Assembly (NCBI GenBank): GCA_030041215.1
Contig: JASHOH010000136.1
Coordinates: forward strand, 186,001 to 250,000
DNA from: Candidatus Sulfotelmatobacter sp.
GTDB lineage: Bacteria; Acidobacteriota; Terriglobia; Terriglobales; Acidobacteriaceae
DNA length: 64,000 nucleotides
Direction of reading: 5' to 3'
The notes below the pieces were generated by a model, which made no database searches, was not told the DNA's origin, and was given only the letters and a program-made list of their open reading frames with translations. This document shows positions 4,203-21,060 of the stretch, piece by piece; within the stretch, counting starts at the first letter, position 1, and each line of letters begins with the position of its first letter. A program made the position numbers and the translations under genes.

Positions 4203-6071
4203 TTACCGAATCTCCACCGTTCCATTTTCCGCCGACATCATTTGTCCTTCCGAATCCCGCACGACCAGTCGCACCAGATAGCTTCCGGGCTTGACATCAA
4301 AGCTCGTTTTCAAAGTGATGCCGGAGGCCAGTTTGTGCTCCAGAGTCTCATCCTTCAAATGCATGGTCACAACTTTTTCCATTCCCTGGACGAAGTTGCC
4401 ATTACGATTGAACAAAGCCGAGACACAAGTCAGAACGTTGTTGTTTCGGCCCTCCGCCTTCCGAAAACGCAGATGCTGCACGTCCACGTGAGCGAGCACG
4501 ATCAGCTTGGCATCCGCATCGCTGGATTTGAAAAACTGCGTGTGCAGCTTCACGGGGAGTTGATGCAACTCCTCCTGAGAAAACATTTCGTCTTCGATCT
4601 CCTGCTTGGCGGCCTGCTCGGGATCAGCAAAGCCCTTGGGCGCGTAGTAGCCTCGGCGAGCCTGGAGGGTCATCTTCTGCGGATTCTTGAGCGTGACCTT
4701 CAGAGTATGAAAACTTCCATCGAGCTTCAGATTTTGCGGGGTAAAGGCCAGCACATAGTAGTACTCCGGTGTTTCGGCCGCGCGGCGGAGTCCTTCATCA
4801 AAATCATTGCTGTTTTGGAAGTAAGAGCCTCCGGTATCTTCCGCGAGCGTTATGAGAAGATCGGACTGGGCGTGAGCTGCCGAGATCGCTAACTGAGTCT
4901 CGTTTAGAGGCGGGGCAGAGGCGCCAAACATGCCTCCGTCCGGGGTCGCCGGAAGCTGATGACTGGCATCGCCGTACGGTAAGATGACATACAATCCCCT
5001 GCCGTCCACCGTACTAATAACTACCTGCGAGCGCAGTGCGCGGTCCACGACTTCATCGTAATCGTACTCCAACTGGGGTATCAGGAATCCGGGAGAGATC
5101 AGAACGATTTCCCTTTGGCCCGGCTTTGTGGAAATGCCTCGAAGGACATCTTCGAGAGACAAGAGAGACACACGACTTTCATGTTGGCCCGCGGAGAGTA
5201 CTTCCTCTGCGAGTGCATCTACTAATCCACCGGCATTGCCTAGAGGTCGGGGCGGAACATTGGCGCCCCAGGCGATAGGTCCGCATTGCTGAGCCTGGTC
5301 AAGAGCCACCTGGCGGGCATCCGGATCTTTCTTGTTCACGATCAGATCTGCCTGGTAGTAACTGATCTCCGGACATATATTTGTAAAGCTGTTGGAGTTG
5401 ATGGGGCTCGGCTGAAGGCGAAGCAAGGTATCATGCAACTTTGCGCGGTCGTCGGTAAAGTCAAGAATGGTCCGCCCTGAAGTAGTGAAAATGGCGGCGC
5501 GGTCCGTCGGCCGCAGCTTGGAAAAGTGCCTTTCGGCAGCCTCTCGCACCCGCGCCAGATCGCCGAACTCGAGGTGTATGTCGTCAAACAGGTAGGCAAT
5601 ATAGCGCTCCGGCATACTACTAGTGCTCGGAGTGACAGAGGTTTCAGCCGCGGGGACATTGCCAGCATTCTCGCTGCTTTGGCGCGCTTTCGCGGCGACA
5701 GCGCCGGGCTGTTCGACTTCGAACTGGCTGATTACCTGCGGCTTACCTCTGTCGAAAACCTGAAAATCTTCCTTTCGCAGATTGCCCACTGCGTGTCCCT
5801 GCGCTTCGTAAACCACAGCACGCACGAGCACCAGTTTCACATTCACTCGGAGCGTAGTGGGCTCGTCATGCGAGGCAAGCTCTGAGAGCTCTTTTGCCTC
5901 TTCGACCTGGGGCGCTGGAGGCGAAAGCGGCTGAGACTCAGTCTGCGCGATTGCGCACATAGACGAAGCAAAGAAATAAAGGAGGAGCGCGAGAAACAGC
6001 TTCTCAGGAATGAACCGGCTGCGAGGAGCACGGAAATTTGCCAGAGGCGCAGTTTCCGGAAAATGCCTCAT
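4203..6071 (-). CDS. Secreted VWFA-related (acidobacterial domain) protein
   Basis: 622 residues with a long positively charged N-terminus and hydrophobic signal segment (LFLALLLYFFASSMCAIAQ). The VWFA-related domain follows: VRAVVYEAQGHAVGNLRKEDFQVFDRG, then AYLFDDIHLEFGDLARVREAA with a MIDAS-like Asp, and RAAIFTTSGRTILDF. The late GGSYFQNSNDFDEGLRRAAE and YYVLAFTPQ segments mirror the neighbouring paralogue, which instead carries a Gly-rich insert. The C-terminal region is predicted beta-rich. It lies immediately upstream of the other VWFA gene on the same strand. Only a weak GGGGGCG precedes the ATG at 6071. Family membership is clear; the role is not established. Confidence 0.85.
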   Translation of the reverse strand: MRHFPETAPLANFRAPRSRFIPEKLFLALLLYFFASSMCAIAQTESQPLSPPAPQVEEAKELSELASHDEPTTLRVNVKLVLVRAVVYEAQGHAVGNLRKEDFQVFDRGKPQVISQFEVEQPGAVAAKARQSSENAGNVPAAETSVTPSTSSMPERYIAYLFDDIHLEFGDLARVREAAERHFSKLRPTDRAAIFTTSGRTILDFTDDRAKLHDTLLRLQPSPINSNSFTNICPEISYYQADLIVNKKDPDARQVALDQAQQCGPIAWGANVPPRPLGNAGGLVDALAEEVLSAGQHESRVSLLSLEDVLRGISTKPGQREIVLISPGFLIPQLEYDYDEVVDRALRSQVVISTVDGRGLYVILPYGDASHQLPATPDGGMFGASAPPLNETQLAISAAHAQSDLLITLAEDTGGSYFQNSNDFDEGLRRAAETPEYYYVLAFTPQNLKLDGSFHTLKVTLKNPQKMTLQARRGYYAPKGFADPEQAAKQEIEDEMFSQEELHQLPVKLHTQFFKSSDADAKLIVLAHVDVQHLRFRKAEGRNNNVLTCVSALFNRNGNFVQGMEKVVTMHLKDETLEHKLASGITLKTSFDVKPGSYLVRLVVRDSEGQMMSAENGTVEIR

Positions 6072-8315: not shown

Positions 8316-9578
8316 TCAGGCTCCGCGGTGGGAACAACGGACAATTTCAAGGACCTCGGCGGCCGTCAACACACGCGGAGATTTCTTGGCCTCATCCATG
8401 ATCTGCTTTGTCAGTTCCGGAGTGGCAGGCACGCCGTGGGAAGCAAGATAATGCTGCACGTTCGAGTTTCCCGACATCGGACCAATCTCAATCTCCTGTT
8501 TGCGGCCGATCCAACCCGCCGGAACGCCCGAATAGACACGGTCGGCCAGCCATGTGTGCCCCTTCTTTTGAGCCTTGACTACGGCCGCAGCGTGGACTCC
8601 GGTCGCGGTCCGGAACGCGTCGGTACCGACGATCGGAGTATTGACTGCGATGGGGACGCGCGTCACCTGCGAAACAAGCTGAACATACTCGGGAAGGCAA
8701 GTCAGATCATCGTTGCGTATGCCCAGGAGCTTCAGATTCACGAGCAGTTGTTCGATGGGCGTGTTGCCAACTCGTTCGCCGATTCCCAATGCAGTTCCAT
8801 GCACCCGGCTGGCGCCTGCTTCGATGGCGGCCAGCGTGTTTGACAAATCGAGGCCGCGATCGCGGTGTCCGTGCCAATCGATGCCGATGTCCGGAGATCC
8901 AATCGTCTTCAGCAGACCTTTCACCCAGCTCACCAGGTTGTAAACGGCATCTGGTGTCGCGGCGCCGCACGTATCGCAGAGGCAAAGGCATTTGGCGCCG
9001 CACTCGACCGCAGCAGTCAGCAGGATGCGGAGATGCTCGGGGGAAGAACGGACCGTGTCCTCGGTGACATACATGACCTCCAGACCCTCGCGCACGGCAA
9101 AGGCAATGGCTTCGCGGGAGTGGCGCAGGATATCGTCTAGCTCCCACTCCTCCGCATATTGGCGAATCGGGCTGGAGCCGATGAAGAGGCAGGCTTCGAT
9201 GGGAACGCCGGTGAGCTGCGTAGCTTCCGCGATCGGCCGGATGTCTACCATGAGTGTGCGGGCTGCGCAATTGGCGCGAATGCGCATGCGCTGCGCCGCA
9301 ATTTCCCGGCAGAGGCGTAGCACGGCCTCCTGCTGGCGTGCCCCAGCGCCGGGTAGCCCCACGTCGGCAGTCTCAATCCCGAGACTTTCCATGAGGTGAA
9401 GAATTTGCAGCTTGGCTTCGACAGGAGGATCAGTCACGGAGGGGCTTTGCAGGCCGTCGCGGAGCGTTTCGTCGTCAATCATGACGTGCCCGGGCCACTG
9501 CGGACGGCGCGGACCCTGTTCGGCCCAGTCGTAGATGAGCTGCTTCTCTTCCGGTGTGCTCATGCGCGGTGTGCTCAT
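8316..9578 (-). CDS. DRE-TIM metallolyase, 2-isopropylmalate/homocitrate synthase-like
   Basis: 420 residues of the HMGL-like TIM barrel. The strand-1 motif is IDDETLRDGLQSP (residues about 35-47), which carries the metal Asp and catalytic Arg. The second metal site is DWHGHRDRGL (His-x-His), followed by VHGTALGIGERVGNTPIEQL. These enzymes condense acetyl-CoA with a 2-oxoacid or cleave the reverse product. There is no LeuA-type regulatory C-domain; after the barrel come only about 110 residues. The ATG at 9578 follows GGAGGCGGC. It is the last gene of the benzoyl-CoA operon, 15 bases behind the TPR gene, so a role in processing pimeloyl-type or other products, rather than leucine synthesis, is possible. 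The substrate is unknown. Confidence 0.75.
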   Translation of the reverse strand: MSTPRMSTPEEKQLIYDWAEQGPRRPQWPGHVMIDDETLRDGLQSPSVTDPPVEAKLQILHLMESLGIETADVGLPGAGARQQEAVLRLCREIAAQRMRIRANCAARTLMVDIRPIAEATQLTGVPIEACLFIGSSPIRQYAEEWELDDILRHSREAIAFAVREGLEVMYVTEDTVRSSPEHLRILLTAAVECGAKCLCLCDTCGAATPDAVYNLVSWVKGLLKTIGSPDIGIDWHGHRDRGLDLSNTLAAIEAGASRVHGTALGIGERVGNTPIEQLLVNLKLLGIRNDDLTCLPEYVQLVSQVTRVPIAVNTPIVGTDAFRTATGVHAAAVVKAQKKGHTWLADRVYSGVPAGWIGRKQEIEIGPMSGNSNVQHYLASHGVPATPELTKQIMDEAKKSPRVLTAAEVLEIVRCSHRGA

Positions 9579-9593
9579 GCCGCCTCCGTTGCC

Positions 9594-10322
9594 TTATTTC
9601 GCACCCACGGGCGACGTCGCGAAGCCGCGAGCGCGGCGCCGCAGGTCTGCGGCAGCGGCATGGTCGCCCTGAGCGTCGCGAACCAGGGCGAGATGGTAAA
9701 GGCTGCTGACATCGCCGCTGGATTCTTCCAAGCTGCGCTCGAATTCGCGCGCTGCCTGTTCATACTCGCCGAGCCGTTCGTGAATGATCCCGAGATGATA
9801 GTGCGCCATGAGGTACTCGGGAGTAAGTGAAAGCGACAGCTCAAAATGCTCGCGGGCCTCATCAAGCTGGCCGCTGTGAAACAACGCCAAGCCGAGGCGG
9901 TAATGAGCTGCGTTGTAGTTGGGGTCGATTTCCAGGCAATGCCGGAAGGCCTGCGCGGCTTGCGGCATGTCGCCACGGTGATAGTAAGCGACACCGAGAT
10001 CGTAGTGCCCTAGCAGGAAGCGGGGCGCAGCCGCAACCGCTTTGCGGTAAAACGCGGCGGCCTGATCCAGCAAGCCTTCGTGGAAGTAAAGCGTGCCGAG
10101 TAAATGATTGGCGAGCACGTTGTCAGGCTCCGCCGCGAGCAAACGTTCGAGCTCGTGGCGGGACTCCTGGCTACGGCCCTCGCGTTCGTGGACGAGAGCC
10201 AGCAATAAGCGCTGATCGATGGCGGCATCGCGCAGAAACAATCCACACTCCGCGCAAAACTTGTCCTGTTCGGCGGCGACGCGCCCGCATCTTGTGCAAC
10301 GAAGAAAATTGGAATTCGTCAT
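9594..10322 (-). CDS. Zinc-ribbon plus TPR repeat protein
   Basis: 242 residues. The N-terminus has two CxxC pairs (CTRCG and CAECG, residues 9-27) forming a zinc-ribbon. The rest is about six tetratricopeptide repeats, for example NVLANHLLGTLYFHEGLLDQ, GHYDLGVAYYHRGDMPQAA and AAHYRLGLALFHSGQLDEA. There is no signal peptide, so it is cytoplasmic. Proteins of this kind act as scaffolds; no enzymatic motif is seen. A GGAGGTACT precedes the ATG. It sits inside the benzoyl-CoA operon between the SDR and the DRE-TIM enzyme, where such a gene is unexpected. It may assist assembly of the pathway enzymes (inference). Confidence 0.8.
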   Translation of the reverse strand: MTNSNFLRCTRCGRVAAEQDKFCAECGLFLRDAAIDQRLLLALVHEREGRSQESRHELERLLAAEPDNVLANHLLGTLYFHEGLLDQAAAFYRKAVAAAPRFLLGHYDLGVAYYHRGDMPQAAQAFRHCLEIDPNYNAAHYRLGLALFHSGQLDEAREHFELSLSLTPEYLMAHYHLGIIHERLGEYEQAAREFERSLEESSGDVSSLYHLALVRDAQGDHAAAADLRRRARGFATSPVGAK

Positions 10323-10339
10323 AGTACCTCCTCAAAAAA

Positions 10340-11068
10340 CTACGTGGAGCCAACGAACTGACCGCCATCGATTCGCAGAACTTGACCGGTGATTCGCCGG
10401 CCACCGGAGCCGCAGAGAAATGTGACAGCACGACCGATATCCTCGGTTTCTACGAAACTGCCGACCAGAGTTTCTGCCAGGGCCGCATCGCGAACCGGCT
10501 GGGGAAACGACTCGGTCAAGGGTGTGCGCACCCATCCCGGTTCGATCACATTGATCAAAACACCGAAGCGGCCGGCTTCGCGCGCGACACTCTTGGCGAG
10601 ACCGAGAAGTCCGGCCTTGCTGGCGGAGTATGCGGCGGTACCGAACTTGCCGCGAGAGCCGTTGATCGATCCGATCAACACGATCCGGCCGCCGCCGCGC
10701 TCGCGCATCAGCGGCAACGCATGGCGAATCATGAGGAATGCGCCGCGAAGATTCACGCTTTGAATCAGATCCCAATCCTCAACGGACAACTTCCAGACGA
10801 CAGCGTCGCGCGTGACGCCGGCGGCATGAATCGCTATATCGATGCCGCCGTGTCTGTTGGCGACTTCGCTCACGGCATTCGCGACTGAAGCGTCGTTCCT
10901 CACATCACACGCAATCCAAGAAAAATCGGCGCATTTGGGAGGGGCCAAATCCAACGAAATTGCCTGCGCGCCAGCGGCGCGCAGCGAGCACGTGATCGCC
11001 TGACCAATGGCTCCGGAACCACCCGTTATCACCGCAATCTTACCGCCGATCTCGAAATTCTCGGCCAT
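10340..11068 (-). CDS. SDR-family oxidoreductase (3-hydroxyacyl-CoA dehydrogenase candidate)
   Basis: 242 residues of classical short-chain dehydrogenase. The cofactor motif is VITGGSGAIGQAI near residue 15, NAVSEVANRHGGIDIAIHAAG covers the central strand, and the active site has Ser in IVLIGSINGS and AAYSASKAGLLGLAKS (Tyr-x3-Lys). The start at 11068 (MAENFEIGGK) lies 4 bases after the hydratase stop; the frame is open further upstream but overlaps that gene. Directly behind dch, oah and had, it could oxidise the 3-hydroxypimeloyl-CoA formed by Oah, or act as a FabG-like enzyme. The specific substrate is inference. Confidence 0.8.
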   Translation of the reverse strand: MAENFEIGGKIAVITGGSGAIGQAITCSLRAAGAQAISLDLAPPKCADFSWIACDVRNDASVANAVSEVANRHGGIDIAIHAAGVTRDAVVWKLSVEDWDLIQSVNLRGAFLMIRHALPLMRERGGGRIVLIGSINGSRGKFGTAAYSASKAGLLGLAKSVAREAGRFGVLINVIEPGWVRTPLTESFPQPVRDAALAETLVGSFVETEDIGRAVTFLCGSGGRRITGQVLRIDGGQFVGST

Positions 11069-11072
11069 ATCT

Positions 11073-11855
11073 CTAACGTTGCGCCAGCGCAGGTTTGTTC
11101 CATTGCGGTGGGCGCTTTTCCAGAAACGCGCGGATGCCTTCCTCTGCATCGGGGCTAGCCACAAGCTCGCGCAAGTACAACGACTCTATTTCTGGCAGAT
11201 CCTGTTCGAGCACACGACGGAGCGGTAACCGAGCCGCCTGGCAGGCAAATTTGAGAGCAGAAGGCGAGCGCGGAAGAAAATCCGACTCCAGCCATTGATT
11301 AAGGCCGACATCAAGATCGTCTGCGATTCTTGCCGCGAGCCCACAACGAACGGCTTCCTCAGCGCTTATTGCGGCACCGGTCAGCAGCAGCCGTGCCGCT
11401 GGAGCCTGGCCGATGCGAACTGGTAACAAGACGGAAGCGGCGGGGGCAAACACACCTAATTTGATCTCGGGCGAAGCAAACTGTGCGGTCTTGTCGCAAA
11501 TGATCAGGTCGCATGCTAGAACCAGTTCGAATCCTCCACCAAGACACTGGCCACGAACCGCAGCGATCACGGGCGCAGGAGCTTTATTGAACCGTCTTAA
11601 TAAGGTATGCAGCGATTTCAACGTGCCGGCAATCTGATCGGGAAGATGTTCCTGAACGCTCGCGCCAAAGCTGAAATGAGGGCCATCAGCGGCGAGAACG
11701 ATTGAGTTGAGGGCGCGATTGGAACACTGCGAAACGGCTGCATCGAGTTCGCCGATCATGGTGCGATCGAGGATGTTCGCCTTCGGCGCTGCGAGCGTGA
11801 TGCGCGCCACGCGCTCTTCGTGAGTAAACTCGAGCCGGATCTTCGCAAAGTTCAT
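11073..11855 (-). CDS. dch: Cyclohexa-1,5-diene-1-carbonyl-CoA hydratase
   Basis: 260 residues of the crotonase fold. LAAPKANILDRTMIGEL at residues 21-37 is characteristic of the dienoyl-CoA hydratases of anaerobic benzoate degraders; the oxyanion-hole segment is HFSFGASVQEHLP and the helix segment is GQCLGGGFELVLACDL. It adds water to the cyclic diene made by benzoyl-CoA reductase, giving 6-hydroxycyclohex-1-ene-1-carbonyl-CoA. The start ATG overlaps the oah stop by four bases (ATGA). Position between oah and the SDR, with had and bcrDABC upstream, supports this over a general enoyl-CoA hydratase. Confidence 0.85.
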   Translation of the reverse strand: MNFAKIRLEFTHEERVARITLAAPKANILDRTMIGELDAAVSQCSNRALNSIVLAADGPHFSFGASVQEHLPDQIAGTLKSLHTLLRRFNKAPAPVIAAVRGQCLGGGFELVLACDLIICDKTAQFASPEIKLGVFAPAASVLLPVRIGQAPAARLLLTGAAISAEEAVRCGLAARIADDLDVGLNQWLESDFLPRSPSALKFACQAARLPLRRVLEQDLPEIESLYLRELVASPDAEEGIRAFLEKRPPQWNKPALAQR

Positions 11856-12958
11856 TTGACGGCTCCTGTAACGCTCTGAGCTGTCCAGGGCGCGATTTCT
11901 TCGATCAACTCTTCGCTCCAGCGGATCCCTTGGGCCAGGCGCTGGCGCAGCAGCACAAAGTCCACTTCACGATTTTTCTTATCACCATAATGGAAGGCGC
12001 GAAAGCCGGCATTGGCCTCCGTCATCATGTTGAGCGAGAGCCATGCGCGGCTGGTTTCGCGGTTGCGGTCCCAATGTTCGAGCTTGTGTTTGCGCAGACT
12101 TTCGATGGTTTTGATGAGGCAATCCGGCATGGTGTAGAGGAGCTTGGTGCACAACTGTTCGACTGCTTCGTCGAGAAGACTGAGGTCTGTGTGAGCTTTC
12201 GCCACCAGCGCTTGCGCCTGTTTCCTCGCTTCACCCGTTTTGAATTCACCGATCACCATGCGGCCGTATTCATCGAGCACGCGGTCAGTAACGACAAGCG
12301 GATTGGGGACAAAATCTCCATCTACTTTAGCGACGGGTACGATCTGCGTGAGCCCGCCCATCCAATAGAAACGATGCGCGCTCCATGGTTCACAAAGCGT
12401 GCCGCTCATCATGGCGCGCTCGATGCCGACGTAAAGCGGCAGGAAGTCGGTAGCGCCGCCATCGGGAGCCGAGCCATGCTTCGGCCCGGCCTGGCTGAAC
12501 ACCGCCATGTCGCTGGCAATCGAGAAGTCGCAAGCCATGCCGACCTCCTGTCCGCCCCCGACCCTCATGCCGTTGACGCGGCAGATCACCGGCTTGTCGC
12601 ATTGCAGGACGGCGGTGACCATGTCGTTGAAAAGCCGCATGTATTGCCGGTACTCAGCGGGAGCACCAGCGTAAACTTCGGCGTACTCGCGCGTGTTTCC
12701 ACCGGAACAAAAGGCGCGATCGCCGGCGCCGGTCAGCACAACTGCGACTGCGGCGCGATCGTTGGATGCTTCGCGCAGAGCCAGGATGATTTCCTTAATC
12801 ATCTCCGTCGTGTAGCTGTTAAGTTCGGATAGATTGTTGAGCGTGATCCAAACGTTGTGCAGGCCAGCGACGGGCAAGCCATCGCGGCTGCGAACCGGAC
12901 GCCGCTCGACCAGAATGTTCGCCCGCGGCGGCGCATCAACAAGATTGTGGTTTCTCAT
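11852..12958 (-). CDS. oah: 6-oxocyclohex-1-ene-1-carbonyl-CoA hydrolase
   Basis: 368 residues, clearly longer than ordinary crotonases and the usual size for Oah. Features include HNVWITLNNLSELNSYTTEM, the oxyanion segment AFCSGGNTREYAEVYAGAP, CRVNGMRVGGGQEVGMACDF, and the family segment SQAGPKHGSAPDGGATDFLP. The last 150 residues form an extension absent from short hydratases. It hydrates and hydrolytically opens the ring of 6-oxocyclohex-1-ene-1-carbonyl-CoA to 3-hydroxypimeloyl-CoA. An AGGAGAGACC precedes the start, which overlaps the had stop by four bases. With dch and had adjacent, the assignment is strong. Confidence 0.9.
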   Translation of the reverse strand: MRNHNLVDAPPRANILVERRPVRSRDGLPVAGLHNVWITLNNLSELNSYTTEMIKEIILALREASNDRAAVAVVLTGAGDRAFCSGGNTREYAEVYAGAPAEYRQYMRLFNDMVTAVLQCDKPVICRVNGMRVGGGQEVGMACDFSIASDMAVFSQAGPKHGSAPDGGATDFLPLYVGIERAMMSGTLCEPWSAHRFYWMGGLTQIVPVAKVDGDFVPNPLVVTDRVLDEYGRMVIGEFKTGEARKQAQALVAKAHTDLSLLDEAVEQLCTKLLYTMPDCLIKTIESLRKHKLEHWDRNRETSRAWLSLNMMTEANAGFRAFHYGDKKNREVDFVLLRQRLAQGIRWSEELIEEIAPWTAQSVTGAVK

Positions 12959-14040
12959 GGTCTCTCCTGGTGGTTTCGTGGTTTGAGAATCACGCGGCGG
13001 GCAATGGCATGGCGCGCGACCGCATCAAAAACCGCTGGAGCATCGTCCAGGGAATGCAGTTCCACGTAGGGCGCAATCGCCACTTTTCCCTGCAAGACCA
13101 AATCGAGTGCGGCCGTATACTGATCGGGCGGGCAGCCCCAATTGCCGCGGGCAGTGGCATCGAGCGCCATCAGATTCGAAAGACGCAACTCGACTTTCTT
13201 TGGCGTAAAGCCAACGACGGCGAGGTATGCGCCGAAGTCGAGCAAACCGAAGGCAGTTTGTTGTCCCGCCGTGGTTCCGCTAGTTTCGAAAATCTTCAAG
13301 CCTATGCCTCGGCGTCCGCTCTGCTTGGCGAAGTTGCGAACTGCGGCCTTGAGATCCTTCTCGTTGATGGCGGAAGAATTGAGGGTCAGGCCTGCACCGT
13401 GCTGACCAGCCAATTCGAGCTTGGCCTGATCTATGTCGATGGCCACCACGGCCGCGCCCAGTGCAGCAGCGATCTGAACTCCAAAACCACCGACCCCGCC
13501 GACACCCACAAAGACAGCTACATCGTCGGGGCCGATTCCGGCGCGTCGGATGGCCTCCCAAGGCGTAGTCACAGCATCGGCGATCACGGAGAGAAATTCT
13601 GTAGGCAAGCCGGCAGGCAGCGGTTCGGGGACTTGACACAAACCGCGCGCGGGAACGCGAACATGCGTGGCGAAGCCGCCATCGCCGTCGTTGCCTGGCA
13701 TGAATTGATTTCGGCAGATGGTGGGCCGTCCTGCCTGGCAAGCCGGACAGGCACCACACGGAATCACAGCGGGGACGATGACCGTGCGACCTAACCAGGC
13801 TGCAGCCTTGTCGCCAGCGGCGATTACCCGTCCGCTAATCTCGTGCCCCAGGACGAGCGGCAGGGCTTTTCGCGTAGCAACGCCATCCGTGGCAAAACCG
13901 ATGTCAGTATGGCACACGCCGCAGCCGGCAACTTCGACAATAACTTCTTCAGGGCCCGGTTCGAGCACTCGCAGCTCAAAACGCTCAAGCGGCCGGCCCA
14001 CCGCGCACAGATGATAGCCGTAGGCTCCGTCAATTCGCAT
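12955..14040 (-). CDS. had: 6-hydroxycyclohex-1-ene-1-carbonyl-CoA dehydrogenase
   Basis: 361-residue zinc-type medium-chain dehydrogenase. The catalytic zinc site is GCGVCHTD plus LVLGHEISGRV, the structural zinc site is CGACPACQAGRPTIC, and the NAD-binding segment is VFVGVGGVGGFGVQIA. NQFMPGNDGDGGFATHVRVP is close to Had of anaerobic benzoate degraders. It oxidises the Dch product to 6-oxocyclohex-1-ene-1-carbonyl-CoA with NAD+. The gene overlaps bcrD by 11 bases upstream and oah by 4 bases downstream. A general alcohol dehydrogenase is the fallback call, but the operon argues against it. Confidence 0.88.
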   Translation of the reverse strand: MRIDGAYGYHLCAVGRPLERFELRVLEPGPEEVIVEVAGCGVCHTDIGFATDGVATRKALPLVLGHEISGRVIAAGDKAAAWLGRTVIVPAVIPCGACPACQAGRPTICRNQFMPGNDGDGGFATHVRVPARGLCQVPEPLPAGLPTEFLSVIADAVTTPWEAIRRAGIGPDDVAVFVGVGGVGGFGVQIAAALGAAVVAIDIDQAKLELAGQHGAGLTLNSSAINEKDLKAAVRNFAKQSGRRGIGLKIFETSGTTAGQQTAFGLLDFGAYLAVVGFTPKKVELRLSNLMALDATARGNWGCPPDQYTAALDLVLQGKVAIAPYVELHSLDDAPAVFDAVARHAIARRVILKPRNHQERP

Positions 14041-14860
14041 ATTCCCTCACAGCTTCTTGCGACGGAGACCGGCTCGCCAGGCGTTTCAGCCCAAGCAGCG
14101 CTGCGCCCAGAGCGCAAACGAAATCGCAATCCTGTGGAACGTTCACTCTCACCTTGAGGCGATCTTCCAAGGCTCTGGCAATGCCGGCCTGGCGCGCGAC
14201 TCCTCCGATCAGCGTGAGTTGATCTTTCATCCCAACCCGATTGAGCAAAGCTCCGGCGCGGTCGGCCAGGGATTCGTGAATGCCGCGCAGGATGTCTTGC
14301 ACCGTAATTCCCGCGCTGACGTGGTTGATGATTTCGCTCTCCGCCAGCACGGCACAGACACTGGAAATCGGCTGCGGATGAGTGGCCCGCAATGAAAGCT
14401 CACCCACATCTTCCAACGCTACTTCCAGATACTTCGCGGCGCGTTGGATGAACATGCCGGAGCCGGCAGCGCATTTGTCGTTGCTCTTGAATACCTTGAC
14501 GCGGCCGGTTTCGGTGATGCCGATGGCGCGGGTACACTGGCCGCCGATATCGAGAATCGCTGTGCTCTGCGGAACGGCGAAATGAGCACCGCGCGCCGCG
14601 GTCGTGATTTCTGTTACTTGAATGTCGCGGAAGCTGACGCTATAACGGCCGAAGCCGGTGGCGGCGATGTATTCGATCCGGCGCCGCTCAAGTCCTGCCT
14701 GTGCCAACGCCTCTTTCAGTGCGGCGTTGGCGGCTTCGTCCACTCTCACTCCGCTGCGCGTTCGGCCCTTGCCCAGAACGCGCGGCTGGCCGTTGTCATC
14801 GGAGAGCACAACTGCTTTAGTGAAGCTGGTTCCGCAATCAATGCCCGCCAGAAGTGGCAT
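14030..14860 (-). CDS. bcrD: Benzoyl-CoA reductase ATPase subunit, BcrD type
   Basis: 276 residues of the BadF/BadG/BcrA/BcrD ASKHA ATPase family. The phosphate loop is LAGIDCGTSFTKAVVLSDD, a second motif is ILDIGGQCTRAIGI, and the two cluster-ligand cysteines are in DKCAAGSGMFIQRAA and SVCAVLAESEIINHV. The nucleotide motif TLIGGVARQAGIARALE is near residue 230. With BcrA it forms the dimer that couples ATP hydrolysis to electron transfer onto the BC module. The start at 14860 follows GGAGGGGAGATC and lies within the last 23 bases of bcrA, so translation is coupled. D versus A is assigned by gene order and similarity pattern and could be swapped. Confidence 0.85.
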   Translation of the reverse strand: MPLLAGIDCGTSFTKAVVLSDDNGQPRVLGKGRTRSGVRVDEAANAALKEALAQAGLERRRIEYIAATGFGRYSVSFRDIQVTEITTAARGAHFAVPQSTAILDIGGQCTRAIGITETGRVKVFKSNDKCAAGSGMFIQRAAKYLEVALEDVGELSLRATHPQPISSVCAVLAESEIINHVSAGITVQDILRGIHESLADRAGALLNRVGMKDQLTLIGGVARQAGIARALEDRLKVRVNVPQDCDFVCALGAALLGLKRLASRSPSQEAVREYAN

Positions 14861-15677
14861 GATCTCCCCTCCAGATGCCGAATTCGAAGCTCTGGCCAAG
14901 TTTCTCCAGAGCAAACAATGCGGCGCCTACAGCGCCGATGAATTGAGCGTCGGGGCTGACAAGCATTTTGCGCCCGATGACTTCTTCAAGAGCGTGCACC
15001 ATGCCGACGTTTCGCGCGACGCCGCCCGTCATGGTGATTTCCGGCTCGATGTTGAGGCGGCGCGCCAGCGAGAGAGTGCGCTTGGCAATGGCAGTGTGCA
15101 CACCCCCGAGAATGTCTTCCCCGCTCTTGCCCTGAGCGAGGTAGGAAAGAATGTCCGACTCGACGAAGACCGTGCAGACCGTCGCGATTTTCACGGGATG
15201 TTTTGCCTGCAATGACAGCGGTCCAATCTCATCGAGGCTGATGCCCATGACCTCGGCGGCATTCGCGAGAAAGCGTCCCGTGCCGGCGGCGCACTTGTCG
15301 TTCATGACGAAATCAAGCACTTCGCCATCGGCGCCGATGCTGATGGCCTTGGAATCCTGCCCACCCATATCGATAACCGTCCGCGTTCCGGGACAGAGAA
15401 AGCTGGCGCCCTTGGCGTGGCAGGTAATCTCGGTCATCTGCGTGTTGCCGAAGGCGATCTTGTAGCGGCCATAGCCCGTGCCAACAACGAAACCGACATC
15501 GCCGCTGTGCAAGTCGGCCTGCTGGCAGCAAGTGTCGAAGGCGCGTTCGGCGGCGCGCTGCACGTTCGCGCCGGTATCCATCAGAGCTCGCGCCACTATG
15601 TTCAAGCCGCCGTTGTCCGACATGATGACCGCTTTAGTCTGGGTGGAACCGACGTCGACTCCGGCTGCGATTCGCAT
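14838..15677 (-). CDS. bcrA: Benzoyl-CoA reductase ATPase subunit, BcrA type
   Basis: 279 residues with the same ASKHA ATPase plan as its neighbour: AAGVDVGSTQTKAVIMSD, TVIDMGGQDSKAISIG, the cluster cysteine in DKCAAGTGRFLANAA, the second in ATVCTVFVESDILSYLAQG, and ITMTGGVARNVGMVHALE. It pairs with BcrD around a shared [4Fe-4S] cluster and drives low-potential electrons into the BcrBC module at the cost of ATP. AAAGGAGAAC precedes the ATG. Alone it could be an activator of a 2-hydroxyacyl-CoA dehydratase, but the presence of two ATPase genes plus BcrB, BcrC, had, oah and dch makes benzoyl-CoA reductase the better reading. Confidence 0.87.
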   Translation of the reverse strand: MRIAAGVDVGSTQTKAVIMSDNGGLNIVARALMDTGANVQRAAERAFDTCCQQADLHSGDVGFVVGTGYGRYKIAFGNTQMTEITCHAKGASFLCPGTRTVIDMGGQDSKAISIGADGEVLDFVMNDKCAAGTGRFLANAAEVMGISLDEIGPLSLQAKHPVKIATVCTVFVESDILSYLAQGKSGEDILGGVHTAIAKRTLSLARRLNIEPEITMTGGVARNVGMVHALEEVIGRKMLVSPDAQFIGAVGAALFALEKLGQSFEFGIWRGDHATSGGH

Positions 15678-15689
15678 GTTCTCCTTTCG

Positions 15690-16955
15690 TTACGCCCGGA
15701 CGGGAGCAGTCGCCTTGGCGTGCTCCAGTGCCTCGAAGAATGCATCAATCCTGTTCTTGGTTTGCGCCTCGGCGAAATAGCGCGGATCTTCCAAATCGGA
15801 CTCGATATATAAAGTCGGCACGCCGAGTTGCTTGGTGAAGTAATCGCGCATGTCGCCCTGGCCGGCGGAAAACAGCCGGCAACTCTTTACAAAGTGAATG
15901 ATCACGCCATCGGCGTTCCAATCTTCGACGTAGCGGCGAATCTGCTCGTAGCGCTGCAGAAAATTCCGGTTGGTCACGTTTTGCGCGATCATGTGCATGG
16001 CCACGGATTCGAACGGCTTGTCGGGATCGTGGCGAAAGCCGAATTCCCAGAGTCCGCCCACAGTCGAATAAGTCGAGGCCACGGCGCATGCCTGCCATTT
16101 GGCGAACATGTCGCGGAAGGTGCGGAAGTACGGATACGGTGGCGGGCCTTCCATCACCAGACGAAAGTGTTCCTGTTCGTACACGCCTTTGCCGGCATCC
16201 GATTTGGCCTGCAACTCGGCTAGCGCAGCCTCAAAGAATTCCACGCCCTCAGGCCGGGCACGGTAGACATAAAGAGGTCCCATCAGAGTGATGGCGTCGA
16301 AATAGGCATCGAAGGGCGAGGGCGATCGCCGCGCCAGATGCTTGATCTGCGACCAAAGCTCTTCCGAGCGGCTGGAACATTCCACGGCCTGCCGAAACCG
16401 ATCGTGATCGAACTTGCGGCCAGTGAGCTGCTCCAGTTTCTTAACTGTCTCTTGCAACTGTTTGACGACGTATTCGACATCCGATCGCGACGGTGTATCA
16501 GCGCGCATAAAAGGCACGTCGATTACGTACAACGGCGCTTTCTGTAGTTTGGCAGTGTGCTCGAACCACTTCAGGTAGGTGTTGCAGCCAACAAAGTTGC
16601 AGAGGATGAGCGTAGGCGTGGGTAGTTTCCCGCCGGTCGGTGTGATGCCTTTCAGAATGCAGCCGATATCGGCTTTTACATATGCGCAGTTGTCCGCGGC
16701 ATAACCCAGATCTTCCGCCGCCAAGATTGGATCGAGGGACTGGTGACGAATGGCAAGCTGTAGAGCGTTGACCTCCGGATAGATGGGCACGGCGCCGAAG
16801 CCCTCCAGCAGTTCAACGCAGTTGCCGGAGATCATCATGGAAACCGTCGGCGGATCGCCAGTATTGGCTGCGCGATCAAGTTGGTCGTACCAGGCGAGCA
16901 TCAGATTCTTTTGCTGCTGGTGAATCGAACCGCGATATTCCTTCTTGTCGCTCAT
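15690..16955 (-). CDS. bcrB: Benzoyl-CoA reductase subunit B
   Basis: 421 residues, near the usual BcrB/BadE length. It belongs to the FldB/FldC/HgdB dehydratase family. Cysteines likely to bind the active-site cluster are in ILCNFVGCNTYLKWFEH (residues about 120-136) and FVKSCRLFSAGQGDMRDYF (about 355-373). The N-terminal SMMISGNCVELLEGFGAVPIYPE is also typical of BcrB. With BcrC it binds benzoyl-CoA and performs the two-electron dearomatisation to cyclohexa-1,5-diene-1-carbonyl-CoA. The start follows TGAGGAATCAGA, and the gene lies 9 bases behind bcrC and 12 before bcrA. Confidence 0.9.
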   Translation of the reverse strand: MSDKKEYRGSIHQQQKNLMLAWYDQLDRAANTGDPPTVSMMISGNCVELLEGFGAVPIYPEVNALQLAIRHQSLDPILAAEDLGYAADNCAYVKADIGCILKGITPTGGKLPTPTLILCNFVGCNTYLKWFEHTAKLQKAPLYVIDVPFMRADTPSRSDVEYVVKQLQETVKKLEQLTGRKFDHDRFRQAVECSSRSEELWSQIKHLARRSPSPFDAYFDAITLMGPLYVYRARPEGVEFFEAALAELQAKSDAGKGVYEQEHFRLVMEGPPPYPYFRTFRDMFAKWQACAVASTYSTVGGLWEFGFRHDPDKPFESVAMHMIAQNVTNRNFLQRYEQIRRYVEDWNADGVIIHFVKSCRLFSAGQGDMRDYFTKQLGVPTLYIESDLEDPRYFAEAQTKNRIDAFFEALEHAKATAPVRA

Positions 16956-16964
16956 TCTGATTCC

Positions 16965-18110
16965 TCAGTCAAAAATCAGCGATTCCACAAAGGTTTCGAT
17001 TTCCGTGCGCAGGCGGTCGAAAGTAAACGATTTCTCCTCGAACTCTAGTGGCAGATGAGGGATTCCGGCACCCTCCAGTTCCTGCTTGTACGGCACGTAA
17101 TCGAAGTAAGCGGGTTCGCAGAACTTGGCAATCAGGAAGAGAACCGCATCCGCCTTGCTCCGTCGAACCTTTTCGACCAGCCCCTCCCAGCGAGGCTTGC
17201 GGAAGTCATGACGCACCGAGGAGTACACAGAGCGATCAAGATAGCTACAAGCGAGCGCCAGCAGCGGATCGCCATCCGTAGGAATGTCGCTGTCGAACCA
17301 GTTCTGCCCGATCACAAAATCATCGTCGACGATGTAGCAGCCGGCTTCTTCAATGAGCCGGATCAGCGGGAGAGGGGGCTGCTCGCAGAACGAGCCTTCC
17401 ACCACGATGCGAATCGAATCCCGTTTCTTGGCGTTGCGCGAAGGGAAATGAGTCAGCGCCTGCTCCAATTCGGTGGTGTGTTCCTCGACCGGCAGGAAGT
17501 TTCCGCAGCGAATGAGTTGATAAAGCTCCGACGTAGGAACCAGCTCCGGACTCCGCCTGCGCAGTTCATAAAGTTCCCGAATCAACGCCCGGTTGCGGTT
17601 ATAGAGAGCGATGGAGCAGGCCAGCGCATCGTCGTTGACCTTGCAGTTGCCCAGGCGCTCCAGCTCACCGAGGACGCGCCGATATTCTTCCGCCAGAAAT
17701 TGTGTAGCCGCCGGTGAGCTCGGATTATGCGGTAAGTGGAGGAAGTCGACATACATCGAGGGAAAATTGCGCTTCATGACGAAGCACAGATTTCTCGCCG
17801 AATCGCAAATCGTGGAAAACAGGAATCCGTCAAACGGTTCGAGGTGCCCGGTGAGGCCCATTTCCAGGGTGGTCTTAACGATCGAGCAAATGAATGAGCC
17901 GAAGCGGGCGTCGGCGTGTTGAATGTCGAGCCGGTCACCCGCGCCGCTGAGGCCGACCGGCAACATGCCCGCAGCGTGGATCAACTCGACCGGGGCATAG
18001 ACGGGAAAATATGCAATTACTTGGCCGCCGGGATGCTGCTCTTTCCACTTGCGCACCGAGGGAAAGCCCAAGTCGCTACATCTATCGAACGATCGTTCGA
18101 AAAAATACAT
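16965..18110 (-). CDS. bcrC: Benzoyl-CoA reductase subunit C
   Basis: 381 residues of the same dehydratase family as BcrB. VIAYFPVYAPVELIHAAGMLPVGLSG (given here as two parts: VIAYFPVYAPVEL and IHAAGMLPVGLSG) near residues 31-56 is the family entry motif. Cluster cysteines are expected in GSFICSIVKTTLEM, FSTICDSARNLCF and LIAKFCEPAYFDY. It is the first gene of the operon and pairs with BcrB. The first 25 residues align with the expected family N-terminus, which supports the ATG at 18110. No Shine-Dalgarno is present; a TATTTT box at 18118-18123 would put transcription start at or next to the ATG, suggesting a leaderless mRNA (inference). Confidence 0.9.
   Translation of the reverse strand: MYFFERSFDRCSDLGFPSVRKWKEQHPGGQVIAYFPVYAPVELIHAAGMLPVGLSGAGDRLDIQHADARFGSFICSIVKTTLEMGLTGHLEPFDGFLFSTICDSARNLCFVMKRNFPSMYVDFLHLPHNPSSPAATQFLAEEYRRVLGELERLGNCKVNDDALACSIALYNRNRALIRELYELRRRSPELVPTSELYQLIRCGNFLPVEEHTTELEQALTHFPSRNAKKRDSIRIVVEGSFCEQPPLPLIRLIEEAGCYIVDDDFVIGQNWFDSDIPTDGDPLLALACSYLDRSVYSSVRHDFRKPRWEGLVEKVRRSKADAVLFLIAKFCEPAYFDYVPYKQELEGAGIPHLPLEFEEKSFTFDRLRTEIETFVESLIFD
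18085..18100. promoter_or_regulatory. Perfect 16-bp palindrome at the start of bcrC
   Basis: TCGAACGATCGTTCGA is its own reverse complement. It lies within codons 4-9 of bcrC, 10 to 25 bases downstream of the start codon. A 16-base perfect palindrome is expected about once by chance in a window this long, so only the location makes it a candidate repressor operator. Confidence 0.35.
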
Positions 18111-18117: not shown

Positions 18118-18160
18118 AAAATACAGCATCTTCGACCTATGGTCTGTGACGGAGATCACA
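18118..18160 (-). promoter_or_regulatory. CRP/FNR-family site and -10 box upstream of bcrC
   Basis: TGTGACGGAGATCACA at 18145-18160 is a perfect TGTGA-N6-TCACA element, the CRP-type consensus (FNR would prefer TTGAT-N4-ATCAA). Its centre is 42 bases upstream of the bcrC ATG, and TATTTT at 18118-18123 fits a -10 box. That is the spacing of class II activation, with transcription beginning at about 18111. It sits in the only gap (94 bases) between the cytochrome operon and the benzoyl-CoA operon on this strand. Confidence 0.6.
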
Positions 18161-18204: not shown

Positions 18205-19453
18205 CTAACTCTCTATTCTCTTTATGTACAGCCGAAGCCCTACGAGCACCATTGCAATCGCGATGAGGGACACTCCCAAACCGGCGCGGCGACGGTTGCG
18301 CTCCACCATCGCGTCCTTGCCGGCTTGCAGGTTCTTGGCAGCGATTTTCAGGCCGGCTTGAATATCCTGATTCACTAAATCTGTCCGGAAACTATGGATC
18401 GTGACGCGAGCCTTGGTCAACGAATCTCGCGCTTCATTTTGTCCCAGCCGCGCTTCGCTTACCTCCATGCCAGAAGACTCAGCGAGAGCGAGAGTCTTGT
18501 CTGCGCTCTTAATCGCCGCATCCAATTTCGTCAGATCAGCCAGGAGTGCTGCCCGGGCTTGATCACATTTGTCACCGGGGGTGTGGCAGCGCATGCAGAC
18601 GGCGTCTGGGCCAGTTCCAAGTTTCGCGTCTGTGGGATAGGCGATGGCGTGATTCCCGTGACAAACAACGCAACCGGGAAGGCCAGCCGCCTGAAAAGCT
18701 TGCTTGTGCGAACTCTTTTCGTACATCTGGTCCTGGAATGCGTGACAGTTCGAACACACATTCTGGACCTTATCTATTCCCGGAGGAACGGCGCCGTGGT
18801 TTCCGTGGCAGGTTGAGCAGGTTGGCGCGCTCAAGTCGCCGCGCACGGCTAATGCCTCATGATGAACGCTCGCCTTGTAGTTCGCGAATTGATCGGTTGG
18901 AATGGGATATCCCTTCATGTAATCCGCATCAGCGTGACAATGAGCGCACGTGTTCGCCACGTTAACCGGATTCACCGTGGAACGGGGATCGCTGGGAGCT
19001 CTTAAATCGTGCACACTATGGCAATCTGTGCACACCGCTACCTTTGAGTCGCCGACCGCGAGGTGCTTGCCGTGAACGCTGGTGCGGTACTGGACCAACT
19101 GATCAGTACGCAGACTGGGGTCAAACTGGCGAATATAGGCGGGATCGGAATGGCAGTTGCCGCACAACTGAGGAATCTGCTTGCGCTCGATTTTGCCTTT
19201 CCACCCAGCCTTTGGGCTCATCGCTTTGTCTGGATCGTCGCTGGTCGCGTCTCCCCCGTGACAACTGGTGCAGGTTAGGCCCTTTTGCGCGTGTATGTCC
19301 TGACTGAACTTCTCCTGCGTGACTCCCAGAGGATCAGGTAAGGCCGCATGACAATCCAGGCAGGAGTTCTTAGTTTGCCCATAAGCCATGCATGCCCCCA
19401 GCACCAGCAAGATGGCAAGTTCGAACTGGTGGGTCGCACCGAGAGGTCGCGGC

Positions 19454-19479
<26 letters not shown>
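18205..19479 (-). CDS. Nine-haem cytochrome c with C-terminal membrane anchor
   Basis: 424 residues. A signal segment ([17 protein letters not shown]) is followed by nine CxxCH motifs in order: CLDCH, CTSCH, CGNCH, CTDCH, CAHCH, CSTCH, CSNCH, CVVCH and CMRCH. After residue 300 there is a haem-free, charged helical stretch and a final membrane helix ([18 protein letters not shown]) with a positive tail, so the haem part faces the periplasm. The start overlaps the end of the cytochrome b gene by 26 bases; MAILQNK at 19473 is an alternative start. With Rieske and cytochrome b it should form an alternative bc-type quinol-oxidising complex in which the multihaem subunit replaces cytochrome c1. Confidence 0.9.
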
Positions 19480-20535
<1,056 letters not shown>

Positions 20536-20539
<4 letters not shown>

Positions 20540-21045
20540 GCCTCCCGCTTGCGGCTGACGACAATTTCGTCGCCACGCGAGTGCACGTCAAACACCTCCA
20601 GCGGCCTGGGCGGAGGGCCGGAAACATTGCGGCCGTTGAGATCGTAGATTCCGTTGTGGCAGGCACACCAGATTTGCCGCAGATCGCTGCGATACTGCAC
20701 CGTACAGCCCAGGTGGGTGCAAGTCGCTGACAAAGCGCGATAAGTGCCGTCTGCATTCATGACTAGCAAGCCGGGGCGGTTGCCGAAACGGAAAATCTTG
20801 CCGGAATTCGGCTTCAACTCCGTCAGCTTGGCGGCGACGATTTCCTCTGCGCCCAGGTCCGCTACTGGCGGAGGAATAAGATAACGCAGCACAGGGTAGA
20901 GAAAAGACATGAAAGAGGCGATCAGTCCGCCACCGAGAAAGATTTCGATCATGCGACGGCGTGCGGTGTTGGGTTGCGTGAGCCGACCAGCGCTCATCGC
21001 TGCTCGGTGTTCGTTCTGCCGAAGGACATCCAAGTCATTCCTCAT
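20536..21045 (-). CDS. Rieske iron-sulfur protein
   Basis: 169 residues. One N-terminal membrane anchor ([20 protein letters not shown]) is preceded by about 30 charged residues. The [2Fe-2S] ligands are in CTHLGCTV and CACHNGIYD (Cys-x-His and Cys-x2-His). The last 40 residues contain the usual [14 protein letters not shown] overlap with cytochrome b means translational coupling. MSAGRLTQP and MIEIFLGG are alternative downstream starts; I kept the longest, since the gap to the upstream gene is only 15 bases. Confidence 0.9.
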
Positions 21046-21060
21046 GGGTTGATCCCTCGA

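Follow-up and report, generated by a model that had tools for sequence, protein, structure and literature searches.

A ten-gene operon of an acidobacterium probably encodes an oxygen-independent benzoyl-CoA pathway, in which an ATP-dependent benzoyl-CoA reductase would feed the enzymes Dch, Had and Oah. Judged from sequence, the operon is a hybrid of a divergent reductase with Oah (and Had) of the canonical kind, because Oah belongs to the canonical family while the reductase lineage stands apart from the Thauera type. Family scores and trees separate the reductase from both Thauera-type Bcr and Bzd and assign it to another lineage of class I-like aryl-CoA reductases. As far as our searches went, no activity tests were found for this version of the enzyme. 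The operon lies in a stretch of 64,000 nucleotides (hereafter the window). Its acidobacterial origin, proposed in the preliminary description, is supported: the BcrB neighbours at 92-94% (L025, L026, L067) are titled Candidatus Sulfotelmatobacter, whole-genome kinship agrees, and the host is Candidatus Sulfotelmatobacter of the Acidobacteriota.

Organization of the operon

The ten genes occupy positions 8316-18110 of the minus strand. The coordinates of all named genes were correct, as was the earlier description of bcrC, bcrB, bcrA and bcrD with had, oah and dch in one operon. With starts as listed, the intergenic gaps range from -92 to +17 nt, so the genes are likely one transcription unit. 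The features, with their family scores, are given below in the order of transcription.

18145..18160, no strand: palindrome TGTGA-N6-TCACA, CRP/FNR-type; bcrC start 35-50 nt downstream
16965..18110, minus: bcrC-like, CoA-ester reductase subunit, 381 aa; TIGR02263 343 bits (Thauera-type cut-off 421.15); best PDB match MbdN, E 2.7e-92
15690..16955, minus: bcrB-like, CoA-ester reductase subunit, 421 aa; TIGR02260 321 bits (Thauera-type cut-off 486.55); best PDB match MbdO, E 1.5e-65
14838..15677, minus: bcrA-like, ATP-hydrolysing electron activase, 279 aa; TIGR00241 268 bits; TIGR02259 184 bits (Thauera-type cut-off 578); best PDB match MbdQ, E 2.3e-94
14030..14914, minus: bcrD-like, second activase subunit, 294 aa as listed (probable start near 14860, by eye); TIGR00241 220 bits; TIGR02261 185 bits (Thauera-type cut-off 312.85); PDB matches MbdQ, E 1.4e-63, and MbdP, E 9.1e-52
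12955..14040, minus: had; TIGR03201 456 bits (equivalog cut-off 338.65)
11852..12958, minus: oah, 6-oxocyclohex-1-ene-1-carbonyl-CoA hydratase (ring-opening); TIGR03200 554 bits (equivalog cut-off 464.45)
11073..11855, minus: dch, cyclohexa-1,5-diene-1-carbonyl-CoA hydratase; TIGR03189 255 bits (equivalog cut-off 292.5)
10340..11164, minus: SDR dehydrogenase, candidate 3-hydroxypimeloyl-CoA dehydrogenase (probable start 11068, by eye); Pfam PF13561/PF00106
9594..10322, minus: zinc-ribbon/TPR protein; Pfam TPR repeats; Zn_ribbon_3 22 bits (cut-off 27, missed)
8316..9578, minus: DRE-TIM/HMGL-like (isopropylmalate/homocitrate synthase-like) enzyme; PF00682; NF002085 205 bits (cut-off 517); top PDB match homocitrate synthase, E 4.2e-33

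The best NCBIfam matches of the SDR protein are FabG/PhaB-like, those shown being below cut-off, and its putative substrate is suggested by gene position; the DRE-TIM enzyme may catalyse an acyl-CoA condensation. Among the ten genes, we recognised none for a ferredoxin, a ferredoxin-reducing enzyme, a CoA ligase or a glutaryl-CoA dehydrogenase. Terminator-like sites numbered 21 against 11.3 expected, on both strands.

Family assignment of the operon proteins

Proteins were assigned with NCBIfam equivalog cut-offs and Pfam, and their family matches were far beyond chance. Had and Oah exceed their equivalog cut-offs, and Dch just misses that of TIGR03189, which is still its top match; together with the tight operon kept in relatives, this argues for the benzoyl-CoA pathway. 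The four reductase subunits all fall under the Thauera-type cut-offs, which counts against it, and BcrA and BcrD exceed a cut-off only for the general activase model TIGR00241. The BcrA of G011, which is otherwise Thauera-type, is also under its own cut-off (548 vs 578 bits); it has 445 aa, and the window BcrA lacks the N-terminal extension. The Bzd-type cut-offs of TIGR03190/03191/03192 were likewise all missed (136/453.8, 129/448.6 and 182/380.2 bits), so that by score the proteins fall outside that type.

The reductase genes carry PF06050 (HGD-D) twice and PF01869 twice. Two HGD-D-type subunits with conserved cysteines and two distinct BcrAD-type ATPases are thus encoded in one operon, which is the gene content of class I aryl-CoA reductases in the broad sense and bears out the class I type assigned earlier. 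The Thauera/Rhodopseudomonas systems BcrCBAD/BadDEFG (TIGR02259-02263), from which the class I pathway is best known, likewise have bcrCBAD beside dch, had and oah and have the invariant cysteines and the Had/Oah equivalog families in common with the window. They differ in a longer BcrA, in cut-offs that the window misses and in the median identity of BcrB and BcrC (39/38%). Membership in the Thauera type, as the preliminary description had implied, is rejected on the four missed cut-offs and on a separate lineage in the trees.

Conserved cysteines and structural relatives

Cys90/124/359 of BcrB and Cys75/102/331 of BcrC are conserved, the three cysteines of each subunit being invariant across all aligned rows. 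Conservation extends to BcrC Cys242/258, present in the Thauera-type rows and MbdN and absent from HadC and BzdN. Cys129/168 of BcrA and Cys148/187 of BcrD are also conserved, in rows that represent the best tblastn match per query, so that some loci may show one ORF twice. That the cysteines are kept, with Cys242/258 common to the Thauera type and MbdN and missing from HadC, speaks for a benzoyl-CoA reductase; their absence from BzdN speaks against reading them in this way.

The PDB matches for the four subunits included no Thauera-type chain, and the best for each was a chain of MbdONPQ, the 3-methylbenzoyl-CoA reductase of Thauera chlorobenzoica (PDB 9g87, 9gai), which also favours the pathway. 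Like the window system, MbdONPQ is a four-subunit aryl-CoA reductase with a short BcrA-type subunit (MbdQ, 269 aa); it differs in sequence (35% identity in BcrB, 42% in BcrC), and MbdO sides with an acidobacterial protein from G030 (100/100). A plasmid search for the named references yielded 9 records, with identities of 22-28%.

Like 3-methylbenzoyl-CoA reductase, the enzyme could instead act on a benzoyl-CoA bearing a methyl, hydroxy or halo substituent, with Had and Oah handling substituted intermediates, which we regard as unlikely though by no means negligible. For each of the four subunits the nearest solved structure is an Mbd chain, BcrC is closer to MbdN than to the Thauera type (median 38%), and a clade of the window lineage with Mbd, although absent from the best tree (where Mbd joins the Thauera type, 81/29), was not rejected by the AU test (p-AU 0.415). 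However, Had and Oah exceed equivalog cut-offs of the benzoyl-CoA pathway itself, Oah falls in the canonical clade, and BcrB is nearer to the Thauera type (median 39%) than to MbdO.

Phylogeny and the distinction from dehydratases

The window BcrB belongs to a clade of 16 rows, most of them acidobacterial (100/100), from which the proteobacterial rows are separate; inside this clade it sits in a nine-row subclade. The window reductase and Thauera-type Bcr form separate lineages (99/96 and 99/97), and by record labels the window lineage includes at least eight phyla besides Acidobacteriota. The BcrC tree left out 5/79 loci, in which BcrC was short or missing.

A grouping of BcrBC with dehydratases had been named beforehand as evidence against a benzoyl-CoA reductase. 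The union of window-lineage BcrBC with HadBC was rejected (AU test, p 0.0143, with HadBC as the single dehydratase reference and with groups named after the first trees had been seen), which excludes a HadBC-type dehydratase within the limits of that one reference and supports the pathway. The tree position alone cannot tell reductase from dehydratase, because Bzd, a reductase, groups with Had, a dehydratase, on long branches and because a weak branch (81/29) has the window lineage, Had and Bzd together on one of its sides. Nor does fold: the AlphaFold2 model of BcrB (pLDDT 87.5) has a predicted fold common to HadB, BzdO and MbdO (Z 44.5, 43.5 and 42.3), and comparison did not separate reductases from dehydratases. 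Both points weigh against the main reading. The Azoarcus-type class I benzoyl-CoA reductase BzdNOPQ (PDB 8s02) has the same fold as the window proteins and differs from them at 29% identity.

A 2-hydroxyacyl-CoA dehydratase and its activator are, in our view, extremely unlikely products of the BcrCBAD-like genes. The (R)-2-hydroxyisocaproyl-CoA dehydratase HadBC with its activator (PDB 3o3m, 4eht) does belong to the same superfamily (Pfam HGD-D), with the same fold (HadB ranks first by Z, level with BzdO) and identical three cysteines per subunit. The HadBC dehydratase has a single activator, whereas the window encodes two different activase subunits, in an operon shared with Dch-Had-Oah; the AU test and the lack of Cys242/258 in HadC point the same way.

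The preliminary description had proposed checking the phylogenies of Oah and BcrB, and the two gave different answers: unlike BcrB, window Oah belongs to the canonical Oah clade of 18 rows (100/100), and there to a clade of six rows from Terriglobia/Acidobacteriaceae records (100/99). The Oah tree left out the short row L099, and long branches meeting were flagged.

Distribution and origin

In a set of 396 Acidobacteriota genomes, a BcrB relative (E<=1e-60) occurs in 58, of which 32 lie above the Thauera-type cut-off and 13 are of the window type, in line with the earlier suggestion of an overlooked capacity of the phylum. Canonical Oah was found in 2/13 window-type genomes, as against 21/32 with BcrB above the Thauera-type cut-off; the greater part of the lineage therefore requires a different downstream route, and its substrate might be another aryl-CoA. 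This, and an operon in which dch was not found, count against the benzoyl-CoA pathway. By tblastn of the window proteins, the whole order recurs in L025, L027 and L067; in L028 it is kept with dch not found, and in L029 only bcrC to dch was recovered. The TPR protein and DRE-TIM genes are kept in L025, L027, L028 and L067. Individual neighbouring genes checked at other loci of the lineage resemble Dch, Had, Oah and BadH, and a BzdR-type regulator (378 bits vs cut-off 204) is encoded at L017 (G029), both of which favour the pathway. The second point is tempered by BoxR, an aerobic paralog of BzdR (PMC4424350).

The window type occurs patchily, in 5/45 genus members, and its gene neighbours, inspected by eye, differ among relatives, which suggests that it was gained, lost or moved inside the group. 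These two observations would also fit a recent horizontal import of Thauera- or Rhodopseudomonas-type genes from Proteobacteria, as would codon usage, which is mildly different in the operon (only 2.5% of random gene sets were as distant). Such an import is nonetheless very unlikely: the mostly acidobacterial BcrB clade contradicts it for the reductase, Oah sits among Terriglobia/Acidobacteriaceae, and GC is 0.591 in the operon vs 0.572 in 29 flanking genes. The recent transfer proposed earlier is accordingly unsupported for the reductase, and benzoyl-CoA reductase capacity appears to be widespread in Acidobacteriota rather than a recent proteobacterial import.

Regulation and genome context

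The palindrome upstream of bcrC is the only perfect match in the window, where allowing up to one mismatch gives 4 matches against 1.55 expected. Scanning 71 of 79 loci (8 could not be scanned), we found it at <=1 mismatch within 100 nt of bcrC in the window and 8/71 loci, exactly the nine-row BcrB subclade, and not in the 63 others (best 2 mismatches); L038 has a one-mismatch copy at -167, beyond the 100 nt that were considered. This predicted site is probably the target of a CRP/FNR-family regulator. Sigma-54 control by the adjoining sensor kinase/response regulator (22150-25409) was rejected, there being no -24/-12 site near bcrC; the sole match in the window is at 1551-1566 (2.4 expected by chance). 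The sensor kinase, present in 4/5 window-type genus genomes, is not a dedicated regulator, since it also occurs in 3/40 others and, in the draft assemblies G058 and G016, does not share a contig with bcr. A sigma-70 scan gave no match (3.2 expected).

A benzoate-CoA ligase (584 bits vs cut-off 375.25) is encoded on the same contig about 53 kb from the operon, and a 2-oxoacid:ferredoxin oxidoreductase above cut-off elsewhere in the genome; both favour the pathway. Against it, the ligase gene adjoins protocatechuate genes, and neither a BzdR-type regulator nor DsrA had a match above cut-off in the genome. In the flanks, the Oar-type receptor described earlier was recovered by Pfam (40712-44371), and the two proteins called VWFA-related had no Pfam match at E 1e-5. 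A cytochrome c gene occurs in 6/7 genus members with any BcrB vs 7/38 without (Fisher p 0.001, post hoc, uncorrected for relatedness).

Proposed pathway and implications

By analogy with the known pathway, from which the order of reactions is taken, the BcrAD-like ATPases would accept low-potential electrons, presumably from ferredoxin, and pass them to the BcrBC-like Fe-S module in single-electron steps driven by ATP hydrolysis. This module would convert benzoyl-CoA to cyclohexa-1,5-diene-1-carbonyl-CoA, Dch would hydrate the diene, Had would then oxidise the alcohol, and Oah would add water and open the ring to 3-hydroxypimeloyl-CoA, on which the SDR protein would likely act as the next dehydrogenase. 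Electron donor, substrate, activity and regulation are all putative assignments.

A wider reading, for and against which we see the chances as evenly balanced, is that the lineage represents an uncharacterised class I aryl-CoA reductase subclass apart from Bcr, Bzd and Mbd, found in Acidobacteriota and, by record label, in no fewer than eight further phyla, mostly with diverged Dch/Had/Oah/BadH-like partners. The window's subclade would have joined it to canonical Had and Oah under a CRP-type site, giving an anaerobic aromatic-degradation route missed by annotation cut-offs.

Soils and peat, in which aromatic carbon persists without oxygen, harbour abundant Acidobacteriota; should the enzyme prove active, some of the phylum could dearomatise this carbon. 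Surveys relying on Thauera-type cut-offs overlook the window lineage. The operon amounts to a natural experiment in recombining ring-reducing and ring-opening enzymes and, again if the reductase works, would supply a new enzyme for Birch-type reductions.

Operon structure and family assignments

The ten contiguous minus-strand genes at 8316-18110, separated by -92 to +17 nt with the listed starts, bear out the operon proposed in the preliminary description. It lies in the window (G000:C18:186001-250000) of a 5.03 Mb genome, 100% complete and 1.7% contaminated, alongside several other gene runs:

8316-18110, minus strand: in transcription order bcrC, bcrB, bcrA, bcrD, had, oah, dch, SDR dehydrogenase, TPR protein and a DRE-TIM enzyme (isopropylmalate/homocitrate synthase-like)
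18205-21534, minus strand: cytochrome b, Rieske protein, cytochrome c with nine CXXCH motifs, cNMP-binding protein (no further Pfam domain at 1e-5)
22150-25409, plus strand: sensor kinase with two CXXCH motifs and sigma-54-type regulator (by eye)
44599-50999, minus strand: HAD phosphatase, HMGL/PYC_OADA carboxyltransferase, biotin carrier, PPDK_N protein (358 aa), cupin, PEP-utilising protein (617 aa)

Had (456 bits, cut-off 338.65) and Oah (554 bits, cut-off 464.45) pass their NCBIfam equivalog cut-offs, and the Dch model is the top match for the dch gene, yet reaches 255 bits against a cut-off of 292.5. A classical reductase is not borne out, all four subunits missing the Thauera-type cut-offs (BcrC 343 bits against 421.15, BcrB 321 against 486.55, BcrA 184 against 578, BcrD 185 against 312.85); with the Bzd-type models also below cut-off (136/453.8, 129/448.6 and 182/380.2 bits), the reductase is outside both equivalog families. 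BcrA has 279 aa and lacks an N-terminal extension, whereas that of the congener G011 has 445 aa. In G011, BcrB (712 bits, TIGR02260), BcrD and Oah (564 bits) exceed the Thauera-type cut-offs and BcrA falls narrowly below (548 vs 578); this Thauera-type operon (locus L019, 9328-16292) means that one genus holds two reductase lineages.

Conserved cysteines and phylogeny of the predicted reductase

Cys90, 124 and 359 of BcrB occur in every aligned row (54 of the window lineage, 22 Thauera-type, three odd loci and three references), as do Cys75, 102 and 331 of BcrC (51, 20, three and three). BcrC Cys242 (51/51 lineage rows) and Cys258 (49/51) are common to the window lineage, Thauera-type rows and MbdN of 3-methylbenzoyl-CoA reductase (Mbd), whereas BzdN and HadC, of the 2-hydroxyacyl-CoA dehydratase reference HadBC, lack them. 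BcrA Cys129/168 and BcrD Cys148/187 are present in 47/47 lineage and 19/19 Thauera-type rows, the rows being the top match per query. By likeness to HadBC and its activator, we take the conserved cysteines to be Fe-S ligands. The AlphaFold model of BcrB (pLDDT 87.5) has the family fold and matches HadB, BzdO and MbdO about equally (Z 44.5, 43.5 and 42.3), so that the fold cannot tell a reductase.

The loci in the trees were drawn from the best 80 places by likeness to the window, and the sample is biased accordingly. In the BcrB tree of 85 rows (79 loci, the window, two more acidobacterial proteins and three solved references), the window falls, among the matches listed, inside a nine-row subclade (99/96) nested in a 16-row clade (100/100), itself nested in a 55-row window lineage (97/92). 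The 16-row clade comprises records titled Terriglobia, Acidobacteria and similar, plus Bacterium HR08 and HR10; the 55-row lineage also has records with the MAG labels Chloroflexota, Bacillota, Myxococcota, Binatota, Rokuibacteriota, Methylomirabilota, Planctomycetota, Caldifarciminota and Elusimicrobiota. Thauera-type rows, so labeled by tree position and ~40% identity and model-scored for G011 and the phylum-survey genomes only, form a separate 23-row clade (100/100, among the matches listed). The BcrC tree (78 rows, without five of the 79 loci) repeats these groups, with MbdN adjoining the window lineage.

A joint BcrB and BcrC tree of 41 chosen rows (22/54 lineage loci, the window, 12/22 Thauera-type loci, three odd loci, three references), rooted by hand on Had + Bzd, supports the window lineage at 99/96, Thauera-type with odd loci at 99/97, and Had + Bzd against all others at 97/96; Mbd + Thauera-type against all others reaches just 81/29. 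Because Bzd is itself a benzoyl-CoA reductase, the Had + Bzd split does not part reductases from dehydratases, which makes the tree a weaker guide to function, slightly lowers the main reading and slightly raises the rival one, that the BcrCBAD-like genes encode a 2-hydroxyacyl-CoA dehydratase. Against this rival, the AU test rejects a union of the window lineage with HadBC (p-AU 0.0143); the grouping with dehydratases that the preliminary description had named as contrary evidence was thus not found for HadBC, and we regard a dehydratase as very improbable. A union with Mbd is not rejected (p-AU 0.415), so the window lineage may be sister to 3-methylbenzoyl-CoA reductase. The main reading, a predicted ATP-dependent benzoyl-CoA reductase feeding Dch-Had-Oah, is held with good confidence, and the predicted enzyme probably works like a class I reductase.

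Pathway partners

In the Oah tree (34 rows, long branches flagged by the tool), the window groups with the Oah proteins of Thauera-type loci and of the odd locus L076 (18 rows, 100/100); ten rows are another Oah-like protein, seven of them from window-lineage loci, and six window-lineage rows are remoter crotonases. Judged by sequence, the operon is a hybrid of a divergent predicted reductase lineage and canonical ring-opening enzymes. In a survey of 396 Acidobacteriota genomes with completeness of 80% or more, Oah passing its cut-off occurs with 2/13 window-type BcrB (49-100% identity), 21/32 BcrB passing the Thauera-type cut-off (in another two, Oah is partial and scores too low) and 6/12 BcrB at 34-37% (Mbd-like by identity only); window-type and Thauera-type differ at Fisher p 0.003, kinship ignored. 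Seven genomes match Oah but not BcrB, and in G346 BcrB is split across two contigs.

Partners tested elsewhere in the window lineage (loci L034, L044, L070 and L018) are divergent relatives, none reaching its cut-off: BadH-like SDRs (L034 268 bits, L044 289; cut-off 431), a Dch-like neighbor in L034 (188 bits), Had-like (243) and Oah-like (199) proteins in L070, and a PorA-like ferredoxin oxidoreductase in L044 (284, cut-off 550; L046 and L048 have the same clusters). A type II DMSO-reductase-like molybdoenzyme set lies near bcrCBAD in L018 of G040 (854-5998; alpha TIGR03479 337 bits, cut-off 985; beta TIGR03478 256, cut-off 481) and, by eye, in L037 (1-1462); it perhaps serves side-chain oxidation of aromatics. 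L017 has a BzdR-type regulator above cut-off (378 vs 204 bits). In members without had/oah nearby, an amidohydrolase-like protein and an SDR lie directly upstream of bcrC (by eye), a candidate for an alternative ring-opening step. The amidohydrolase-like proteins, the L034 one without an NCBIfam match at E 1e-30, are:

L017, 16720-17658
L033, 1520-2473
L034, 2917-3891
L037, 7110-8003

In the window's genome, the contig of the operon also bears, ~53 kb away, a benzoate-CoA ligase (584 bits, cut-off 375.25) adjoining pcaB- and pcaDC-like genes (C18, ~252.5-258 kb), and a 2-oxoacid:ferredoxin oxidoreductase on C171 exceeds its cut-off (561.6 vs 482.75); the genome search found no DsrA above cut-off. 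Intradiol dioxygenase-like genes occur at 35617-36946 (Pfam). These genes may provide an aerobic protocatechuate route alongside the anaerobic one. Genus members with BcrB have the cytochrome c gene more often (6/7) than those without (7/38). By eye, the cytochrome c module adjacent to bcr in the window has different neighbors in G058, where it is on a contig separate from bcr, and is followed in G043 by a transposase-like gene. The large protein of the 44599-50999 run matches NCBIfam PRK08296 'hypothetical protein' (791 bits, cut-off 578). Sizes in this run resemble those of phenylphosphate synthase subunits, but the run includes biotin carboxylation parts.

Putative regulation

A perfect TGTGA-N6-TCACA palindrome at 18145-18160, starting 50 nt ahead of the bcrC ATG, has no second perfect match in 64 kb. 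Versions with no more than one mismatch lie up to 100 nt from bcrC in L025, L026, L027, L028, L029, L030, L035 and L067, hence in 9/9 members of the subclade among the matches listed, with varying spacers and flanks just 22-45% identical (ungapped comparison). It was found in 0/63 other scanned loci (best, two mismatches), 8/79 being unscannable for want of upstream sequence or of a usable bcrC; the background is 17/3779 random 100-nt stretches of those eight loci with the site. AadR and AcpR are CRP/FNR-family members. A regulator of that family is the natural candidate for the predicted site. The window scan found no sigma-54 site near bcrC, and the genome search no BzdR-type gene above cut-off. 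According to PMC4424350, AadR and AcpR control benzoyl-CoA genes as global regulators.

Distribution and origin

Placement in Acidobacteriota holds, the nearest BcrB relatives among the matches listed being titled Candidatus Sulfotelmatobacter (L067 94%, L025 93%, L026 92%), with L027 (90%) titled Acidobacteriaceae bacterium; all four belong to the window's genus. The operon is whole in L025, L027 and L067, lacks dch in L028 and lacks the last three genes in L029. Window-type BcrB occurs in 5/45 genus genomes, and two more have BcrB at 40-41% (G011, model-scored; G020, by identity only).

The preliminary description had offered transfer into the phylum or an overlooked capacity of it. The latter is upheld: a BcrB relative occurs in 58/396 Acidobacteriota genomes and BcrB above the Thauera-type cut-off in 32/396, a broad capacity in which the classical type is the more frequent one. 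Fresh proteobacterial import finds no support, the reductase lying in a mostly acidobacterial 16-row clade. The proposed compositional check gave GC of 0.591 in the operon vs 0.572 in 29 flanking genes and a mild difference in codon usage (distance reached by 2.5% of random gene sets). A history of gain, loss or relocation inside the group seems likelier for the operon than a fresh import from Proteobacteria.

In the titles, abstract openings and passages of the full-text literature searched, which covers few subscription journals, no report of class I benzoyl-CoA reductase in Acidobacteriota or the window lineage was found; passages of PMC10803450, PMC12857086, PMC12206884 and PMC11362221 report no acidobacterial one, and 'benzo' is absent from the text of the Sulfotelmatobacter paper PMC6018796. 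Other papers describe a Bzd-type reductase in Chloroflexi (PMC5736913), bcrABCD in Krumholzibacteriota (PMC10936416) and the class I mechanism in Thauera (PMC4992971). Gene contexts across the lineage favor predicted aryl-CoA reduction, not necessarily of benzoyl-CoA itself. The anaerobic benzoyl-CoA operon in Acidobacteriota is real, conserved and probably functional.
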